Assembly (NCBI GenBank): GCA_022824365.1
Contig: JAJEAA010000029.1
Location: 186,001-250,000, forward strand
Length of the DNA stretch: 64,000 bases
From: Anaerolineae bacterium
Lineage (GTDB): Bacteria > Chloroflexota > Anaerolineae > Aggregatilineales > Phototrophicaceae
Direction: 5' to 3'
Shown here: positions 27,237-41,337 of the stretch, piece after piece
How positions within the stretch are numbered: the first letter of the stretch is position 1
Layout: each line of letters opens with the position of its first letter
The notes under the pieces: generated by a model
Databases searched by the model: none
Told to the model about the DNA's origin: nothing
What the model saw: the letters and a program-made list of their open reading frames with translations, nothing else
Made by a program: the position numbers and the translations under genes

Positions 27237-27842
27237 ATGAATCCCGACGCCCTGCTGCAATTCATGCGCGAGCGCCGCTCACTGCGACGCTATGAGGCGC
27301 GTGCCGTTCCGCCGGAATGCATCGAGCAATTGCTGGAAGCCGCCAGTTGGGCGCCATCCGCTCATAACCGGCAGCCCTGGCGCTTCGTGGTTATAGAAGC
27401 GCCCGCTATCAAGGAGCGGCTGGCGCGGGAAATGGGCGCGCGCCTACGCCTCGACTTGCAAGCGGATGGTATGGCGGAAGAGTTCATCGAGAACGATGTC
27501 GGGCGTTCCTACGCGCGCATTACCTCGGCGCCGCTTTTGCTCCTGCTCTGTATGAGTCTTGGCGATATGGATGTCTATGCCGACGACCAGCGCAACGCGC
27601 ACGAGGCGACCATGGCGCAACAAAGCGCGGCGATGGCGGGCCAGAATATATTACTGATGGCCGCCAGCCTCGGCTTAGGCGCTTGCTGGATGTGCGCGCC
27701 CTTGTTCTGCCAGGGCTTAGTCGCATCGGTTTTGGACCTGCCCGTCGACTGGCGACCGCAAGGCATGATCACGTTGGGTTATCCGGCGCAGATTCGAAAG
27801 CGAAGCCGCGACCCTTGGGAAGCAAAAACATTGTGGCGATAG
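27237..27842 (+). CDS. Nitroreductase-family protein (FbiB C-terminal-like)
   Basis: FMRERRSLRRYEARAVPPE; ASWAPSAHNRQPWRFVV; directly follows cofE. Confidence 0.82.
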   Translation: MNPDALLQFMRERRSLRRYEARAVPPECIEQLLEAASWAPSAHNRQPWRFVVIEAPAIKERLAREMGARLRLDLQADGMAEEFIENDVGRSYARITSAPLLLLLCMSLGDMDVYADDQRNAHEATMAQQSAAMAGQNILLMAASLGLGACWMCAPLFCQGLVASVLDLPVDWRPQGMITLGYPAQIRKRSRDPWEAKTLWR

Positions 27843-28777
27843 ACAAGAATGTTGTTGTCCTGATCGGCGGCGTCGGCGGAGCCAAGCTGGCGCTCGGTTT
27901 GAGCCAGGTGGTGAAGCCCGAAAGGCTAACCTTCATCGTCAACACTGGCGATGATTTCTGGCATCTCGGCCTAAAAATCTGCCCGGACCTCGATACGCTG
28001 ATGTATACTCTGTCCGGCTTGGTTGACCCCGCCACTGGCTGGGGCGTCGCGCATGACTCCGATGCGGTATTAAGAAGCCTGCATGTAAATTTTGGTCTTG
28101 AGCCCTGGTTTCGGCTCGGTGACAAAGACCTGGCCACGCATCTCATGCGGACGCAAATGTTGCGATCAGGAAACACGCTGACCGAAGCGACTGTGTGCCT
28201 GACTGAGCGTTTAGGCATTCGCGCGCGCTTGCTGCCTATGTCCGATGCCGAAGTGCCAACGATCGTGGATACCGCCGAAAAGGGCGAGCTCGGTTTTCAA
28301 AAATACTTCGTAAAGCACCGCTGGCAGCCGACTGTCAGATCGATACGACATCAGAATTGTGAAAGGGCGCAAGTTTCGACGGCTGTCCAAGCGGCCCTTG
28401 CCGCCGCGGATATGGTGTTGCTTGCGCCATCCAACCCCTGGCTTTCGCTGGCGCCGATCCTGGCGGTTCCCGGTCTGCGCGCCCTCCTCAAAGACCTGAC
28501 CTTGCCAATTGTGGCGGTGACGCCGATTATTGCTGGCGACGCTGTAAAAGGTCCGACGGCAAAGATCATGACTGAGCTTGGCATTGATGTATCGGCGAAG
28601 TCAGTGGTCGATTACTTCGGCGTCTTGATTAATGGTTTTGTTGACGACATTCGCAACGAGCCCTTTGACGATGGGAGGCTGCGTCTGGCGCGGATGGATA
28701 CGCTGATGACAGACCTGTCGGCCAAGGTCGGCCTGGCGCGCGCAATTCTGGCTTGGATCGAGGGCTGGGCGCCATGA
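27833..28777 (+). CDS. cofD: 2-phospho-L-lactate transferase
   Basis: VVLIGGVGGAKLALGLSQVV; VNTGDDFWHLGLKICPDLDTLMYTLSGLVD. GTG at 27833 preferred over 27683. Confidence 0.92.
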   Translation: MAIDKNVVVLIGGVGGAKLALGLSQVVKPERLTFIVNTGDDFWHLGLKICPDLDTLMYTLSGLVDPATGWGVAHDSDAVLRSLHVNFGLEPWFRLGDKDLATHLMRTQMLRSGNTLTEATVCLTERLGIRARLLPMSDAEVPTIVDTAEKGELGFQKYFVKHRWQPTVRSIRHQNCERAQVSTAVQAALAAADMVLLAPSNPWLSLAPILAVPGLRALLKDLTLPIVAVTPIIAGDAVKGPTAKIMTELGIDVSAKSVVDYFGVLINGFVDDIRNEPFDDGRLRLARMDTLMTDLSAKVGLARAILAWIEGWAP

Positions 28778-29421
28778 GCCTTTGGGCTATCATTCCGGTG
28801 AAACCGCTGAAAAACGCCAAGAGTCGCCTGGCGCCGGCTTTGCTGCCCAATCAGCGATTCGAATTGGCTCAAGCGATGTTTCGCCATGTGCTCTCTGTGA
28901 CCGCTACAATTCAACAGGTCACAGGCGTGCTGGTGATTTCCCGCGATACCAAGGCGCTGGCGATAGCCCGGGAATTGGGCGCTAAGACCTTGCAGGAAGG
29001 CGCTTTATCGAATCTTAATCCCGCGCTCCTGCGAGCGACCATGGTGGTCAAGAGCTGGCGCGCCGACGCTGTTCTGATCTTGCCGGCGGACCTGCCCTTC
29101 ATCAATGCGGAAGACATCCGCGCGATGATCCGGCTGGCTGATGAAGATTCTCTTGTCATCGCCACCGATCGCGAACGCGATGGCACCAACGCCCTGCTGA
29201 TTCGCCCGCCCGGCGCGATCGAATATGAATACGGCCGCGGCAGTTACGCGCGGCATATTCACTTGGCGGAGAAAGTCGGCCTGCGTGTCTCCACCTATCA
29301 ATCTGACCGAATGGCTCTGGATATTGATGTTCCTGAGGATCTCAGAGATTATCAGGAAATCCTGGCGGGCGGCCAGTTCGGTCACTTGCCGTCCTTCCCG
29401 CTGGCGCTCGGCGCGAGTTGA
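28774..29421 (+). CDS. cofC: 2-phospho-L-lactate guanylyltransferase (CofC/FbiD)
   Basis: MSLWAIIPVKPLKNAKSRLAPALLPNQR; LPADLPFINAEDI; ATGA overlap with cofD. Confidence 0.9.
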   Translation: MSLWAIIPVKPLKNAKSRLAPALLPNQRFELAQAMFRHVLSVTATIQQVTGVLVISRDTKALAIARELGAKTLQEGALSNLNPALLRATMVVKSWRADAVLILPADLPFINAEDIRAMIRLADEDSLVIATDRERDGTNALLIRPPGAIEYEYGRGSYARHIHLAEKVGLRVSTYQSDRMALDIDVPEDLRDYQEILAGGQFGHLPSFPLALGAS

Positions 29422-29505
29422 GGTCGGGGCATGATTTGCCTCAAGAGGCGATGATGATAGATAATATCGGTGACAAGGGATGCACTAGCGAACTGGAGAA
29501 TTCTC

Positions 29506-30510
29506 ATGGCTGATCGGGTAGCGCTTTATCTGCAGGACGCGCACAATTTGGCTGACGCGATCGAATATGTGAAATATGCTGAGTTATGCGGTTTTGAGGC
29601 GGTCTGGCAAGCCGAAAGCCGCCTGGTTCGCGACGCGATCGTGCCGATGGCCGCTTTCGCCGCCGTCACCTCGCGCATCAAAATCGGCTCGGGCGTGATT
29701 AACAACTGGACGCGAAACGCCGCCGTGATCGCTGCCACTTTCCTCACGCTGGATGACTTGGCGGAAGACCGTATCTACTGCGGCATTGGCGCTTGGTGGG
29801 ATCCTCTGGCGGCGAAAGTCGGCATCACCCGCCGCAAAAACCTGCTCGCCATGCGCGAAGTGGTGACTGTGGTCCGTCGACTGTTGAATCGTGAACGCGT
29901 CAGCTTTGATGGCGAATTTGTCCAGATGGATGACGTGGAACTGGATGTCGTGCATGGACGCAAGGAACCACGTAACGTGCCCATATATATTGGCGCGACC
30001 GGGCCGAAGATGATGGCGCTCACGGGTGAAATCGCTGACGGCGCCGTGCTGAATTATTTGGTCTCTCCCAAATATAATGAGATGGCGATGGCGCAACTGG
30101 AGATCGGGGCGAAGAAGGCAGGCAAATCGATCCATGATGTGGATCGGCCCCAGCTTGTCGTCTGCTCGGTGGATAATGATCGAGCCAAGGCGCTCGACGC
30201 CGCCCGCAAACTCGTGACGCAATACCTTGGGCAACAGCCGCATATCATGAAAGCCAGCGGCGTCAGCCAAGAATTGCTCGATGAAATCGGACAAGTTTTG
30301 ACCTGGCCCGCTACCGAGGAGCAGATCCTGGAAGCGATGAAGCTGGTGCCGGACGAAGTCGTGCAGATGATTACCGCTTCCGGGACGCCGGCTGAAGTCA
30401 AGGCCAAGGTGCGTGAGTATATCGCGGCAGGCGCGACTTGTCCCATTCTTTACCCGCTGGGTGAGGATGTTCGCCTCATGATCGACACCTTCGCCGGCGG
30501 CTACTCGTAA
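29506..30510 (+). CDS. LLM-class F420-dependent oxidoreductase (Mer-like)
   Basis: [74 protein letters not shown]. Confidence 0.87.
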
Positions 30511-31215: not shown

Positions 31216-32643
31216 ATGTGGCGAGCTTATTACAGTGTCAGCAGCATTGATGAAGCGCTCGCGCTTTTGGACGAACACCAGGCGACAGCGCGTATTGTGG
31301 CCGGCGGCACCGATCTGATCATCGAGATGGAACACGGCGGACATCCTCAGCTAAAAGCGCTGATTGATATCACCCGCGTGCCCGGTCTGGATCAAATTCG
31401 CCTCGAAGACGACACGATTGTATTGGGCCCACTCGTGACCCACAACCATGTCGTGAGCAGTGAATTGATCCGGCTGAGGGCGCTTCCGCTGGCGCAAGCA
31501 TCTTGGGAAGTCGGCGCGCCTCAAATACGTAACCGCGCCACTGTCGCCGGCAATCTGATCACCGCGTCGCCCGCCAACGATACCATCACGCCGCTGATCG
31601 CCATGGATGCCGAAGTGACCCTGGTTTCGGCCGAAGGCGAACGGACGCTGAAGCTGGCCGATTTCTATAGCGGCTTTCGACAGACCGTCCTCCGTCCGAA
31701 TGAGCTGCTGCTTGCCATTCGCATTCCGGCGCTGGAAGCCGACCAGCGCGGTGTTTTTCTGAAACTGGGCTTGCGGCGCGCCCAAGCCATTTCTGTTGTG
31801 GATGTCGCTGCAGTTTTGCGTCGCGACAAAGATCAACGGGTTGCGGAGGCTCGCATAACGCTAGGCAGCGTTGCCGCTACTATCATTCGCGTGCCCGCCG
31901 CCGAGCAATTCTTGCTTGGCAAGCGGTTGACGGCGGAGACGATCGCCGAGGCCGGGCGCCTAGCCAGCGCGACTGCTACGCCGATCGACGATGTACGCGG
32001 CAGCGCCGAGTATCGTAGCGAAATGGTCAAGATCCTAGTCCTACGCGCGCTGCGCCAGTTGGCGGCGGCTGAGCAAGAGAGCGGCTTGCCCGCTGCGCCT
32101 CCCATGCTCTGGGGCGGAGATGGCGCCATCGTAAAGCGCGGTCTCCCGCGGCAAATCCTTCATAGGCCCGATACGCCGATCGAATGCCGCGTCAACGGCG
32201 AAGACTTGAGCATCCCCACCGGTCAACAGAAATCACTGCTGCATTGGCTCCGCGATGATGTCGGCCTGCTCGGCGCCAAGGAAGGCTGCGCCGAAGGCGA
32301 ATGTGGCGCTTGCACGGTCTTCTTGGATGATGTGGCGGTCATGTCGTGCATGGTGCACGCGCCGAGGGCGCATGGCGCCGCGGTCGTCACGGTCGAAGGC
32401 TTGCGGCAGGGCGAGCGTCTGCATCCTATTCAACAAGCTTTCATCGATGAAGCCGCCGTTCAATGCGGTTACTGCACACCGGGCTTCTTGATGGCGGGGG
32501 CCAAACTTCTGGAAGAAATTGCCGAACCCGACACTGAACAGATCAACTACAGTATCAGCGGCAACCTTTGTCGCTGCACCGGCTATTATAAAATCGTGGA
32601 GGCTTTTCGTCAGGCGAGCAAAGCGAAGGCGAGAATCAGATAA
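31216..32643 (+). CDS. Xanthine dehydrogenase-type FAD-binding + [2Fe-2S] fusion subunit
   Basis: N-terminal VAGGTDLIIEME...APQIRNRATVAGNLITASPANDT; C-terminal GCAEGECGACTVFLDD and CGYCTPGFLM...NLCRCTGYYKIVEA. Confidence 0.9.
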   Translation: MWRAYYSVSSIDEALALLDEHQATARIVAGGTDLIIEMEHGGHPQLKALIDITRVPGLDQIRLEDDTIVLGPLVTHNHVVSSELIRLRALPLAQASWEVGAPQIRNRATVAGNLITASPANDTITPLIAMDAEVTLVSAEGERTLKLADFYSGFRQTVLRPNELLLAIRIPALEADQRGVFLKLGLRRAQAISVVDVAAVLRRDKDQRVAEARITLGSVAATIIRVPAAEQFLLGKRLTAETIAEAGRLASATATPIDDVRGSAEYRSEMVKILVLRALRQLAAAEQESGLPAAPPMLWGGDGAIVKRGLPRQILHRPDTPIECRVNGEDLSIPTGQQKSLLHWLRDDVGLLGAKEGCAEGECGACTVFLDDVAVMSCMVHAPRAHGAAVVTVEGLRQGERLHPIQQAFIDEAAVQCGYCTPGFLMAGAKLLEEIAEPDTEQINYSISGNLCRCTGYYKIVEAFRQASKAKARIR

Positions 32644-32652
32644 GGACAGCGT

Positions 32653-34407
32653 ATGGACCGACGCGTTCCCAAAACAGGCAGCGAAGAAGTCGAACTTTAT
32701 ATGCGCACTTATTATTCGCTGCTGCGCTCCAGCGATAGCATCAAGATCGAGACCTTGGTCGAAAGCCATTTGGCAATGTCATCGTCATTGCACGAGCATG
32801 CTGATGCCGCCGAGCTGGATGCCTCCGCTTTGATGTATAGCGCTTTGCGCCTGCCCAGTTGTATCATCGATGTCGACGAGGTCCTGGTCGGGCAATTGGA
32901 GCGCGCATTCGTCGCCGCTGGCTACAAGAACATCTCAGCCTGGCAGCGCGTCTATGCGCCTGGCCGCCGCCGCCGCACGCACTTCAATGGCGATAGCGCC
33001 ATGGCGGTTTTCATTGTCAGCCGCTCCGATATTGACGATCTCGTGCCTATGTTGACCGCTTTTCAGATCGAATGGAACAAGTTGCACCGTCTGCTGCAGG
33101 CGGAGGACTTGCGCCTTCTGCTTGAACCCTTTGCCGAGGAGGGCCGGCTGCCGGATGCGGAATTCGATGAACTGGCGACTTGCCTGCGGATGGCCGTTAG
33201 CGACTTGCGACGCCTCCAGCTGTTGTGGGGCGCCGACTTCGTGAATAACTTGCTGCGCATCGGACGACGGCGCAAGAGCATGACCTTGCGTTTGATCTCC
33301 GGCTCGCTCGCCGATTATCGCCGCGCGACTGCCTCCTGGTGGTATGAACTCTGTGAAGAGATGGCGCTTGCCGACATAGATCTTCAGGAACGGCCCGTTT
33401 ACTTCGTCTCCAGCAATACCCATTCCTTGATCAATTTGCTGGCCGGTTTCGCCCGCCGCTTTGAAGAGAGCCTGGTCAACTATATCGAGCAGTTTGAAGA
33501 AAAGTCGCTGCTGACCGAGTACGAAGATCTCAAAGAGAGCTACCACAAGAGCATCGATAACTTCTTGTATTTTGTCTTGCGTCAATATCTTTCGGAACAA
33601 GGCGGTCAGGCGAAACGCATACTCCAGAAAGAGGAACATCGCCTCGGCATCCATCGTGTGCCCAGCCGGCACGGCTTCGAAATGGAAACACAGGTGATCG
33701 AACTGGGTAAACTGGAAGCGCAATGGTTTGATCCGCGCCTGGGCCGGGCTGATGACCTAGAGCCTTTGCGACATAGCAACGCCATCATCATCAATATTGA
33801 TTACCCGCTGGGTATGGCGTCTTATGAGCTTCTTAGCCGGATATCCCAAGGCGTTGGCCGGCTTGATGGCGTCTATGTCATGGGCAAGGCGGCCACGCTA
33901 AACGGTCGCATCGGCGATATGATGATCCCGAACGTGATTCACGATGAGCACTCGCAGAATACCTACCTCTTTCGCAACTGCTTTACCGCGCGTCACGTCC
34001 GCTCCTGGATGGAGCACGGCAACGTCCTTGACAATCAGAAAGCGGTCACCGTTCTGGGCACCTTTCTGCAGAACCCGCACTATATGAGCGTTTTCTACAA
34101 AGAAGGCTACACCGATATCGAAATGGAAGGCGGACCATACCTTTCGGCGGTATACGAGGCCTTCCGCCCGCAGCGGCATCCGGTGAATGAAATTGTAAAT
34201 CTGCATTCGGTGCGCTTTGATATCGGCTTCTTGCATTACGCATCGGATAAACCCATGAATCGCGGGCAGAACCTGGGCGCGGGCAGCTTGAGTTATGGCG
34301 GTGTGGAGCCGACCTATGCTGCCGCCATCGCTATATTGCGCCGCATCTTTTACAACGAAACGGAAAAGTTCATTGAGACGACATTCGAGGCGATTCCATC
34401 GTATTGA
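32653..34407 (+). CDS. Uncharacterised protein with possible C-terminal nucleoside-phosphorylase-like fold
   Basis: 584 aa; C-terminal half has GVYVMGKAATLNGRIGDMMIPNVIHDE and DIEMEGGPYLSAVYEA, resembling PNP/MTAN motifs. Confidence 0.6.
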   Translation: MDRRVPKTGSEEVELYMRTYYSLLRSSDSIKIETLVESHLAMSSSLHEHADAAELDASALMYSALRLPSCIIDVDEVLVGQLERAFVAAGYKNISAWQRVYAPGRRRRTHFNGDSAMAVFIVSRSDIDDLVPMLTAFQIEWNKLHRLLQAEDLRLLLEPFAEEGRLPDAEFDELATCLRMAVSDLRRLQLLWGADFVNNLLRIGRRRKSMTLRLISGSLADYRRATASWWYELCEEMALADIDLQERPVYFVSSNTHSLINLLAGFARRFEESLVNYIEQFEEKSLLTEYEDLKESYHKSIDNFLYFVLRQYLSEQGGQAKRILQKEEHRLGIHRVPSRHGFEMETQVIELGKLEAQWFDPRLGRADDLEPLRHSNAIIINIDYPLGMASYELLSRISQGVGRLDGVYVMGKAATLNGRIGDMMIPNVIHDEHSQNTYLFRNCFTARHVRSWMEHGNVLDNQKAVTVLGTFLQNPHYMSVFYKEGYTDIEMEGGPYLSAVYEAFRPQRHPVNEIVNLHSVRFDIGFLHYASDKPMNRGQNLGAGSLSYGGVEPTYAAAIAILRRIFYNETEKFIETTFEAIPSY

Positions 34408-34449: not shown

Positions 34450-36675
34450 GTGTTAAATGAAACGACCGCGGTCATCAGTGAATCCATGAAGCGCATAGAC
34501 GCCAGGGGCAAGGTCACCGGCGAAACCCCTTATCCCGGCGATATTGATATCGACGGCCAACTCTGGATGCGCATCAAGTTTAGCGAACGCGCCCATGCCC
34601 GTGTGGCGCGCATAGACGTTAGTCAGGCAGAAGCGCTGCCCGGCGTCATCCGCGTATTTACGAGCCAAGATGTGCCGGTTAACGAATATGGCTTGGTGAT
34701 GAAGGACCAGCCAGTGCTCTGCGGTCCCGACGGTGACAAAGCCGGGACCGATGTCGTGCGCTGCTACATGGACATGGTGGCCACGGTCGTCGCGGAAACG
34801 GACGACATCGCCAGGCGCGCGCTCGACTTGATCCAGGTCGAATACGAAGATTTGCCCGCGGTATTTGATCCCGAAGATGCCATGGCGGCATCTGCGCCGC
34901 AGTTGCATCCTGAGCATCCTCAAAATCTGGTGACGCAATACCGCATCCGCCGGGGAGATATGGCGGCCGGCTGGGCGGCGGCCGATGTCGTTGTCGAAGG
35001 CGAATACGAGACCACCTGGCAGGAACACGCCTATCTCCAGCCGGAAGCCGGTCTCTCATATATTGACGAAGAAGACCGCGTCACCGTGGTCGTAGCCGGC
35101 CAATGGACGCACGAAGACCAGGAACAGATTTATCATGCGCTCAACCTGCCGCCAGCGGAAGTGCGCGTGATATACCCAGCGATTGGCGGCGCCTTCGGTG
35201 GCCGCGAAGACATGTCGGTGCAGATCGTCTTGGCGCTGGCGAGTTGGAAGCTGCGCCGGCCGGTGAAGATCCAGTGGAATCGCGAAGAATCCATTCTCTA
35301 CCATCACAAGCGCCATCCCATCAAAGTTCGCGCGAAATGGGGGGCGGCTCGGTCCGGCAAATTGACTGCGGTCCAGGCCGAGGTCATCGGCGACGCCGGG
35401 GCCTATAACTATACTTCCAACAAGGTGCTGGGCAACGCCCACATCAACGTCAGCGGTCCTTATGAAATTCCCAACATCAACATTGATACTTACGCCGTCT
35501 ATACCAACAACATCCCATCGGGAGCTTTTCGCGGCTTCGGCGCGCCCCAGGCTCTGCTGGCCGCCGAAGGGCAGATGAACCGTCTCGCGGCCGCGCTGGA
35601 TATAGATCCCCTGCAAATCCGCTTGATCAACAGCATCCGCGAAGGCAGCATCGGCACAGTCGCTACGCCCTTTCCCGCCGGTGTGACTATGCCTGAAGTC
35701 TTTGAGGCTTGCGGCAGAGAGTCCTGGTGGCGCGAAACGACCGCAGGCTGGACGTTGCAAAAGCCAACTCAACCAACCGACAAAAGCAAGCGGCGCGGCC
35801 GCGGACTGGCCGGTGGCTTCAAAAATGTCGGTTTCGGCTTCGGGTACCCCGAACATTGCTGGGCTGGCATCGAATTGCTGGGCAGCACGGAGATCGAGAC
35901 GGTCATTCTTTACCAGGCCGGCGCCGATGTGGGGCAAGGGGCGCATACCGCCCTTTCGCAAATGGCGGCTGATGCCGTCGGTGTGCCATTTGACAAGGTG
36001 CGGATCGTCGCCTCCGACACCGCCACCTCCGGATCTTCAGGCAGCGCTTCCGCCTCGCGGCTGTCATTCATGTCCGGCAATGCCATCCGCGGCGCCGCTG
36101 AAATCGCCTTGCGCAAATGGCGCGACGAAGAGCGGCCCGCCAAAGGCGAGTTCATGTATCACCCGCCGCCGACCACCGATTTTGACCCGCAAACCGGCAA
36201 GGCGGAACCTAACTTCGCCTATGGCTACGTGGCGGAAGCGGTCGAAGTTGAAGTCGATATCGAAACGGGTCAGGTGCAATTGATCGATGTGGTTTGCGCC
36301 AACGATGTCGGCAAAGTGATCAATCCGCAGCAACTGGAAGGTCAGATTGAAGGCGCGGTCATTCAGGCTCAAGGCTATGCGCTGATGGAGTATCTAGTAT
36401 CGCGCGAGGGCAAGATCCTTAATCCCTATCTGTCGACCTATCTGATCCCGACCTCGCTGGATGTGCCGCCCCGGATAAAGTCGGTCGTGTTGGAAAATCC
36501 CGATCCGCTCGGTCCTTGGGGGGTTCGCGGCATGGCCGAGATGCCCTTCTTGCCTCTGGCTCCGGCTATAGCTGCCGCTATCTACGACGCCACCGGCGTC
36601 TGGGTTGATTCCCAACCCTTTCTTGCCCAGAAGGTCGTCAAGGCGCTGCGCAAGCATGGCATTGGCGCGGTCTGA
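34450..36675 (+). CDS. xdhA: Xanthine dehydrogenase-family molybdopterin-binding subunit
   Basis: RIDARGKVTGETPYPGDI; GGAFGGREDMSVQIVLALAS; GPWGVRGMAEMPFLPLAPAIAAAIYDATG; GTG start. Confidence 0.9.
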   Translation: MLNETTAVISESMKRIDARGKVTGETPYPGDIDIDGQLWMRIKFSERAHARVARIDVSQAEALPGVIRVFTSQDVPVNEYGLVMKDQPVLCGPDGDKAGTDVVRCYMDMVATVVAETDDIARRALDLIQVEYEDLPAVFDPEDAMAASAPQLHPEHPQNLVTQYRIRRGDMAAGWAAADVVVEGEYETTWQEHAYLQPEAGLSYIDEEDRVTVVVAGQWTHEDQEQIYHALNLPPAEVRVIYPAIGGAFGGREDMSVQIVLALASWKLRRPVKIQWNREESILYHHKRHPIKVRAKWGAARSGKLTAVQAEVIGDAGAYNYTSNKVLGNAHINVSGPYEIPNINIDTYAVYTNNIPSGAFRGFGAPQALLAAEGQMNRLAAALDIDPLQIRLINSIREGSIGTVATPFPAGVTMPEVFEACGRESWWRETTAGWTLQKPTQPTDKSKRRGRGLAGGFKNVGFGFGYPEHCWAGIELLGSTEIETVILYQAGADVGQGAHTALSQMAADAVGVPFDKVRIVASDTATSGSSGSASASRLSFMSGNAIRGAAEIALRKWRDEERPAKGEFMYHPPPTTDFDPQTGKAEPNFAYGYVAEAVEVEVDIETGQVQLIDVVCANDVGKVINPQQLEGQIEGAVIQAQGYALMEYLVSREGKILNPYLSTYLIPTSLDVPPRIKSVVLENPDPLGPWGVRGMAEMPFLPLAPAIAAAIYDATGVWVDSQPFLAQKVVKALRKHGIGAV

Positions 36676-36908
36676 GCGTGTCCCGGCTGGTATTGTCTGC
36701 CGCTAACATCAAACCAGCGGGCCAAGGACCGATTGGCTTGATTCGCCGCAAGGGGAATCTGACCCTTTTCTTAACCCTTTCTTGATTTCTTGCTTGGTCC
36801 AACATGGGCGCGTCTCGGCGCTTTCGTGTTATGATTGGAGCGATCCAGCTTTCTAGTTGCCGCTGCTCGGCATTTTGGCGAGACGTGGCTTGCCTAACCG
36901 ACGGAGTA

Positions 36909-38273
36909 ATGATGAGATTTGCCCAAGCCTTTGAACTGGCGCCCGGCGATGTAGTCGCCTTCGTCGGCGCTGGCGGCAAGACATCACTCATGGTCAGTTT
37001 GGGATATGAACTTGCCGAAGCGGGCTGGCGCGTTCTAGCGACTACTACAACCCAACTCGCCAAAGATCAGTTGGCGCTCTTTCCTTGCGTCTTGCCCGCT
37101 GATACTGATGCCCGCGCGATATCGCAGGCGCTAAGTGAAAAGCAATTCGTCTTGTTGCACGACGAGGTTAGTGGGGGAAGCGTTTACGGACCGGCGCCTG
37201 AGTGGACGCGGCAAATGCTGGATAGCGTTGATTCTGATATCTTGCTGGTAGAAGCCGATAACGCGCGTGGCTTGCCTTTCAAGGCTCCATTGGCGGATGA
37301 ACCGCGGATTCCGCCGGAGACATCGTTGGTAATTGCGGTAGCATCGCTTAAAGCCCTGGGCGCGCCGCTGGATAATGATCATATTTACAATCCGCGAGCG
37401 ATGATCGAGAAGTACGGCTTTGCCGAGAACAGTCCGGTCAAATCTCCCTGGCTCGCGCAAGTCTTGCGTGATGAGGACTTGGGCTTGCGCGGCGTCCCGC
37501 AAGACGCGAGAGTTTTGATCTTCCTCAATCAAACGCCGGAACGCGGTTATGTCCGCGGCCGGGCTCGCATGATCGCGCGCTTGAGCCTGCAAAGCGAGCG
37601 CATCAGCGCAGTCGCGCTTGGCTCGGTCCGGGGCGTGGAACCGGTATACGAATTGCAGCGGGCGGTTGGCGCGCTGGTCCTGGCGGCCGGCGACGCCTCC
37701 TGCCGGAACCTTGACGCCCTCCTGCAACCAGTCGATACCGGCGGCTGCGCCTTGGCGAATGTCACCGAACAACTGATGCGCTCTCGAATTGATCATATCC
37801 GCCTGGTCACTGGCCGGGGCGCCCGCGATGTGAAAAAAGCCGTGAAGCACCTCGGTGTCAAATCAATTCAAAATCGCGCCTGGAAATCCGGAGGCCTTGT
37901 CTCTTCGCTCAAAGCGGGTTTTGGCTCCCTGCCGGATCACGTCGCTGCGGCGCTTCTGGCGCCCTGCTGCGAGGCGCGCATCCAGCCCAAGTTGATCTAT
38001 CAACTCTTTTCCGCATTTGCGCGCTGCGACGGAGACTTCATCGTTCCGCAGTTTCAACGACGGTACAACCAACCGATCCTGATCGCGCGGAAATACTGGG
38101 ACGAAATCCTCAAGCTGCCGCGCCAAACCGACCTGCGCTCCATCATCAACCACTTTGAGGCTCAGGTGACCTTTGTCGATGTGGACGCCAACGGTATCTT
38201 CCGCGATGGCGATTCGCTTAACGATACGGGCCGCAGGCGCCGGCCCGCAAGCATAAAGCATCACGGACCCTAG
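36909..38273 (+). CDS. YqeC (selenium-dependent hydroxylase accessory) fused to MocA-like domain
   Basis: FVGAGGKTSLMVSLGYELAEAGWRVLATTTTQL; VEADNARGLPFKAP; C-terminal LVLAAGDASCRNLDALLQPVD. ATG 36909/36912 preferred over 36804. Confidence 0.82.
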   Translation: MMRFAQAFELAPGDVVAFVGAGGKTSLMVSLGYELAEAGWRVLATTTTQLAKDQLALFPCVLPADTDARAISQALSEKQFVLLHDEVSGGSVYGPAPEWTRQMLDSVDSDILLVEADNARGLPFKAPLADEPRIPPETSLVIAVASLKALGAPLDNDHIYNPRAMIEKYGFAENSPVKSPWLAQVLRDEDLGLRGVPQDARVLIFLNQTPERGYVRGRARMIARLSLQSERISAVALGSVRGVEPVYELQRAVGALVLAAGDASCRNLDALLQPVDTGGCALANVTEQLMRSRIDHIRLVTGRGARDVKKAVKHLGVKSIQNRAWKSGGLVSSLKAGFGSLPDHVAAALLAPCCEARIQPKLIYQLFSAFARCDGDFIVPQFQRRYNQPILIARKYWDEILKLPRQTDLRSIINHFEAQVTFVDVDANGIFRDGDSLNDTGRRRRPASIKHHGP

Positions 38274-40479: not shown

Positions 40480-41337
40480 ATGAATCGGAGCGAAGCAATG
40501 CGCCAGCGAGAGGAATATCGACGAGCAGCCGAGTTCGTACGCGGACGCATTGACTTGCAGCCGTCAATCGGCTTGGTGCTCGGTTCGGGCTTGGGCGCCC
40601 TGGCCGATACGATGGGGCGGAGTATTGTCGTGCCTTATGCGGATATCCCCGGCTGGCCCCAATCGACTGTAGTGGGCCATCACGGTAATCTTGTCATTGG
40701 CGAGTTGGAAGGTCAGGTCGTCGTCGCCCAACAAGGGCGGGCCCACTTCTATGAAGGTTACACGCCCCAGCAGGTCACATTTCCTATTCGCGTGATGAAG
40801 GAATTGGGTATTCATTCCCTGATTTTGACGAACGCTGCCGGCGGCGTAAATCGGTCTTACAAAGTGGGCGATCTGATGTTGCTTGAGGACCATATCAATC
40901 TGCCCGGTTTGGCCGGCGCCAACCCTCTCATGGGACCGAACGATGACGAATTAGGCGAACGCTTTGTGGGCATGGCGCAAGCCTATGACCGCGCCTTGCG
41001 TATGCGGGCGTTGGAGGTCGCGCGCGAGCGCAATATTCCGCTTCATAGCGGCGTCTACTTTGGCCTGTCCGGTCCCGCATTCGAGACTCCCGCCGAGATT
41101 CGCATGGTGCGCGCGCTCGGCGGCGATACTGTGGGAATGTCTACCGTGCACGAAGTAATGGTGGCGCGCCACGCGGGCATGCGCGTCATGGCCTGCTCCG
41201 GCGTCACCAACGTCGCCATCGACGCGGTCGAAAGCGATCTCGAAACCAATCATCTGGAGGTCTTGGAAGCCGCGGAGATAATCGTGCCGCGCCTGACTGC
41301 CATACTGAAAGGCGTGCTTCGAAACTTCCCGACATGA
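40480..41337 (+). CDS. punA: Purine nucleoside phosphorylase
   Basis: IGLVLGSGLGALAD; GHHGNLVIGEL; GRAHFYEGY; LTNAAGGVNRSYKVGDLMLLEDHINL; GPAFETPAEIRM. Confidence 0.93.
   Translation: MNRSEAMRQREEYRRAAEFVRGRIDLQPSIGLVLGSGLGALADTMGRSIVVPYADIPGWPQSTVVGHHGNLVIGELEGQVVVAQQGRAHFYEGYTPQQVTFPIRVMKELGIHSLILTNAAGGVNRSYKVGDLMLLEDHINLPGLAGANPLMGPNDDELGERFVGMAQAYDRALRMRALEVARERNIPLHSGVYFGLSGPAFETPAEIRMVRALGGDTVGMSTVHEVMVARHAGMRVMACSGVTNVAIDAVESDLETNHLEVLEAAEIIVPRLTAILKGVLRNFPT

Follow-up and report, generated by a model that had tools for sequence, protein, structure and literature searches.

AMP nucleosidase (Amn, EC 3.2.2.4), trimeric purine nucleoside phosphorylase (PNP), and the MTA/SAH nucleosidases (MTAN) with the hexameric NP-I phosphorylases are the closest described systems to the protein considered here. 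AMP nucleosidase joins an N-terminal domain to a C-terminal NP-I domain, and M404, E405, and D428 are the only residues of its active site that are common with distant structural homologues (PMC9584410). MTAN and the hexameric NP-I enzymes carry EME and SD motifs in about 230 to 250 residues, and a G(S/T)xGG loop is usual, though not universal, in NP-I.

In the window, i.e., the whole stretch of 64,000 nucleotides that was analysed, an open reading frame on the + strand (32653..34407) encodes a 584-aa protein of the DUF6909 family (PF21850), a Pfam domain of unknown function that roughly one in three of the sampled Chloroflexota genomes encodes. Our study proposes for this domain an enzyme role that can be tested at specified residues. 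As judged from a structural model, the protein is most likely an NP-I-fold enzyme resembling purine nucleosidases and lying outside the characterised NP-I families. Among bacteria known mainly through metagenomes, such an enzyme could release bases in a step of purine or N-heterocycle breakdown that has perhaps gone unrecognised, and the hydroxylase encoded beside it may oxidise bases freed from nucleosides.

The DUF6909 gene, its operon, and its distribution

The protein matches PF21850 over residues 32 to 566 (E 7.4e-216, 718 bits with a gathering cut-off of 27) and covers model positions 1 to 534 of 535, an agreement in which no difference was found. By its sequence it is thus a full-length DUF6909 member, and a chance reading frame is excluded by the Pfam E value of 7e-216 together with homologues in 140 of the 400 genomes drawn from the phylum Chloroflexota, where the gene is nearly always single-copy. 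NCBIfam gave no match for the protein, PDB sequence searches with the protein and with the family profile gave no meaningful one, and PADLOC matched the locus to no defence system. The Pfam entry carries no described function, and the literature searched holds no mention of DUF6909.

Among close relatives the gene occurs in 45 of 61, the 14 control genomes all lack it, and no homologue was found among viral contigs and phage records. A distant relative is carried by Persicobacter plasmids (Bacteroidota), with identities of 19% in the N-terminal half and 28% in the C-terminal half. All named relatives are Chloroflexota, except one record titled Pleurocapsa minor (Cyanobacteriota; L164), which is placed by the DUF6909 tree next to an Aggregatilineales sequence, has the same operon, and is probably a mislabelled or contaminating contig. 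An apparent fusion of 1100 aa at another locus was rejected by eye as a low-complexity read-through ahead of the conserved start.

In the window, the + strand carries in this order (i) the fused FAD and [2Fe-2S] subunit of a molybdenum hydroxylase (31216..32643; Pfam FAD_binding_5, CO_deh_flav_C, Fer2, and Fer2_2), (ii) the DUF6909 gene after a gap of 9 nt, (iii) the Mo-cofactor subunit of the same hydroxylase after a gap of 42 nt (34450..36675, start codon GTG at 34450; Pfam Ald_Xan_dh_C, MoCoBD_1, and MoCoBD_2), and (iv) a YqeC-MocA-type fusion of the kind involved in molybdenum hydroxylase maturation (36804..38273; Pfam YqeC and NTP_transf_3, NCBIfam TIGR03172 above cut-off). A canonical PNP gene of the trimeric type (40480..41334, + strand; PF01048, E 1.9e-53) follows ~6 kb downstream of DUF6909, and the genome carries three canonical PF01048 enzymes. 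An earlier note, made from the letters alone, had placed the 584-aa reading frame between two Xdh subunit genes, and its coordinates, its quoted C-terminal strings, and its flanking genes are all confirmed. The flanking genes do encode xanthine dehydrogenase-type subunits (fused FAD plus Fe-S, then Mo), but xanthine as the substrate is not established, since neither of them reaches an NCBIfam equivalog cut-off. Among NCBIfam models, the Mo subunit scores best with the xanthine dehydrogenase subunit pucD, at 561 bits where the cut-off is 784; in the PDB, xanthine dehydrogenase scores lower than 4-hydroxybenzoyl-CoA reductase and nicotinate dehydrogenase, which rank best. The name Xdh is provisional and, because of this, so is the purine reading of the operon.

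Predicted fold and conserved residues

An AlphaFold2 model of the protein built from 59 sequences (pLDDT 84.7, pTM 0.86) predicts an NP-I fold for the C-terminal half. The top 50 matches of this model in a Foldseek search against the PDB are all NP-I enzymes (PNP, AMP nucleosidase, and MTAN), bearing out the resemblance to PNP and MTAN that the earlier note had seen in the C terminus. The best match is to human and bovine PNP (E 3.6e-7), AMP nucleosidase is among the best (2guw, E 6e-7), and the MTA nucleosidases have the highest target-normalised TM-scores of the list (0.59 to 0.62); the rmsd among the top matches is mostly 5 to 12 Å. The predicted domain spans residues ~246 to 575 (33388..34377, + strand), its boundary being drawn from the order of secondary-structure elements, and includes a helical insertion at residues 284 to 330 (33502..33642, + strand) that is its least conserved part. 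Sequence similarity to NP-I falls below significance: a single one of 61 DUF6909 members weakly matches the PF01048 profile (E 0.006), and hhalign against NP-I enzymes of the same order gives a probability of <1%, aligning GKAATLN with GGAGVLD and EMEG with EMEA in the correct register within an overall match that is not significant. The NP-I placement therefore rests on the predicted fold and on motifs.

The N-terminal domain (residues 1 to 245, 32653..33387, + strand) is alpha/beta and then all-helical in a model of residues 1 to 250 alone (pLDDT 91.3), for which the PDB holds no match below E 0.8. This provides a contrast for the C-terminal half, since the fold search evidently does not return significant NP-I matches for any model. 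The N-terminal ~300 aa, which the earlier note could match to nothing it recognised, also lie inside the known DUF6909. An internal duplication, considered from the N-terminal model, was rejected because the NP-I-like PDB matches were too weak (probability up to 0.28). Within this domain, R105-R106-R107 (32965..32973, + strand) show no variation across 61 Chloroflexota homologues and the two Persicobacter sequences, and S125 and D129 of the SRSDIDD stretch (residues 123 to 129, 33019..33039, + strand) are kept across phyla.

In the C-terminal half, E490-M491-E492 (34120..34128, + strand) and S531-D532 (34243..34248, + strand), by motif the ribose-binding EME and the purine-type catalytic Asp, are invariant in the 61 Chloroflexota homologues and the two Bacteroidota ones. 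This includes E492, the Glu of the MEG string whose conservation the earlier note had proposed to check. By motif, M491, E492, and D532 are the counterparts of M404, E405, and D428 of AMP nucleosidase. TFLQN (residues 470 to 474, 34060..34074, + strand), a putative base-side loop, has T470, L472, Q473, and N474 invariant across phyla. Two loops are altered relative to the ordinary NP-I enzymes found in this genus. GKAATLN (residues 411 to 417, 33883..33903, + strand) replaces the GSAGG loop, so that the Ser/Thr of G(S/T)xGG is absent and an invariant lysine, K412, stands where the usual loop has Ser, and SSNTHS (residues 253 to 258, 33409..33426, + strand), in the loop after the first beta strand, replaces the GDPxR loop, with S253, N255, and H257 invariant across phyla. 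When a conserved residue is defined as one kept in ≥95% of Chloroflexota sequences and found unchanged in both Persicobacter sequences, 22 of the 34 in the NP-I domain sit in six loops at NP-I active-site positions (hypergeometric P ~3e-11, a description more than a test since the loops were picked with the motifs in view).

The protein thus shares its predicted fold with trimeric PNP. Its EME and SD motifs, however, are those of the hexameric/nucleosidase branch, the FETPAE motif seen in the neighbouring PNP is missing, and an extra N-terminal domain and the insertion are present. MTAN and the hexameric enzymes have the same EME and SD motifs, and differ in size and in the two altered loops. 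The two-domain layout recalls AMP nucleosidase, whereas AMNp_N (PF10423) is absent from the DUF6909 protein (E up to 1) and from the whole genome, the N-terminal fold has no PDB counterpart, and sequence similarity is not significant; the regions of its phosphate-binding R381, K436, H188, and Y189 give no reliable residue alignment to DUF6909. The altered GKAAT loop and a large, conserved N-terminal domain with its invariant RRR and no solved relative would also suit a catalytically inactive sensor or scaffold of the NP fold, binding a nucleoside or base and signalling through the N-terminal domain. We consider such a role improbable, the residues typical of catalysis (EME and SD) being strictly invariant in 61 diverse homologues and Pfam recognising no DNA-binding or output domain.

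Linkage to the hydroxylase

At least one hydroxylase subunit gene flanks DUF6909 in 63 of 80 named loci and both do so in 56, while 11 have enough flank and neither gene; these loci are the best-scoring relatives and are therefore biased to the lineage of the window. Of the linked loci, 43 have a full downstream flank, and 34 of these contain a PNP gene. Linkage to hydroxylase genes is seen at 9 loci of the phylum-wide sample and is lacking at 44. On the DUF6909 tree the linkage label needs at least six changes, and linked sequences occur in several branches, down to about 50 to 53% identity with the window protein, so that the linkage is old or recurrent. It is widespread in Anaerolineae-type lineages, but in most other Chloroflexota classes DUF6909 has no conserved neighbour and no linkage to purine genes. 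Moreover, a MoCoBD protein was undetected in at least five DUF6909 genomes. The conserved xdh linkage looked for by the earlier note thus holds across many lineages and fails in most other classes, and its suggestion of a protein acting with Xdh reduces to a lineage-specific coupling at most. Co-occurrence of DUF6909 with MoCoBD was discarded as evidence, 338 of the 400 genomes having MoCoBD and the comparison being uninformative.

The same data bear on a role in maturation or assembly of the molybdenum hydroxylase, in which the NP-I fold would handle a nucleotide-type cofactor, e.g., molybdopterin dinucleotide, and not act as a metabolic nucleosidase. Hydroxylase maturation genes are indeed among the neighbours (YqeC-MocA, XdhC, and a YqeB-like gene), but the genomes without a detectable MoCoBD protein and the unlinked state of the gene across most of the phylum make this role unlikely. 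The lack of conserved linkage in most classes would in turn be expected of an NP-I-fold enzyme working outside purine catabolism, e.g., on a modified nucleoside, a sulfur-containing nucleoside, or a deazaflavin-type compound, and standing in the xdh operon by coincidence; in the lineage of the window F420 genes are found upstream, and one distant genome has them close to DUF6909 as well. We give this alternative a low probability as well, since the xdh linkage is kept down to ~53% identity in several branches and DUF6909 occurs in Bacteroidota, which are not known for F420.

A candidate nucleosidase and its neighbours

On balance, we lean towards DUF6909 being a two-domain enzyme whose divergent NP-I catalytic half cleaves a purine nucleoside or nucleotide and, in Anaerolineae-type bacteria, supplies the base to the adjacent hydroxylase. 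We propose a model in which the purine nucleoside or nucleotide would bind to the C-terminal NP-I-fold domain, its ribose being held through E490/M491/E492 and its base protonated through D532. The unusual K412/H257/N255 pocket would handle whatever differs from PNP, be it a 5'-phosphate, another substituent, or the nucleophile site. For cleavage of the N-glycosidic bond, water would be a more likely reactant than phosphate, since no counterparts are seen for the arginines that normally make up the phosphate site. The base so released could then, in Anaerolineae-type bacteria, pass to the adjacent molybdenum hydroxylase. Against this model stand the nonsignificant NP-I sequence homology, the replaced GSAGG loop, and the high Foldseek rmsd, as well as the missing purine-gene linkage outside the Anaerolineae-type lineages and the canonical PF01048 enzymes that the genome already has. 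A further-reaching version, which we hold only tentatively, would make DUF6909 a new NP-I branch in which the pocket is built around a lysine and the fused N-terminal domain has an unseen fold and invariant RRR and S-x-x-x-D sites of its own; the protein would then perform a second step or bind a nucleotide-type substrate in a way new for the superfamily, feeding the hydroxylase of the same operon.

Several other neighbours were recorded around the gene. The xdh operon of the window is preceded by F420 genes at 27683-30510 (CofD, CofC, and an F420-type luciferase-like oxidoreductase, with a CofE-like gene upstream), which stay linked to it in relatives. Judged by sequence identity, the luciferase-like (LLM) protein (29470-30510) is unusually strongly conserved, at 84 to 99% across near relatives, where its neighbours often reach only ~55 to 80%. 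A translin-like protein adjoins DUF6909 in three distant loci, in one of which (L108) the Pfam Translin match is weak and below cut-off (E 0.0015). Directly upstream of DUF6909, seven loci encode a small protein for which two membrane segments are predicted, at a position where the window has only 9 nt.
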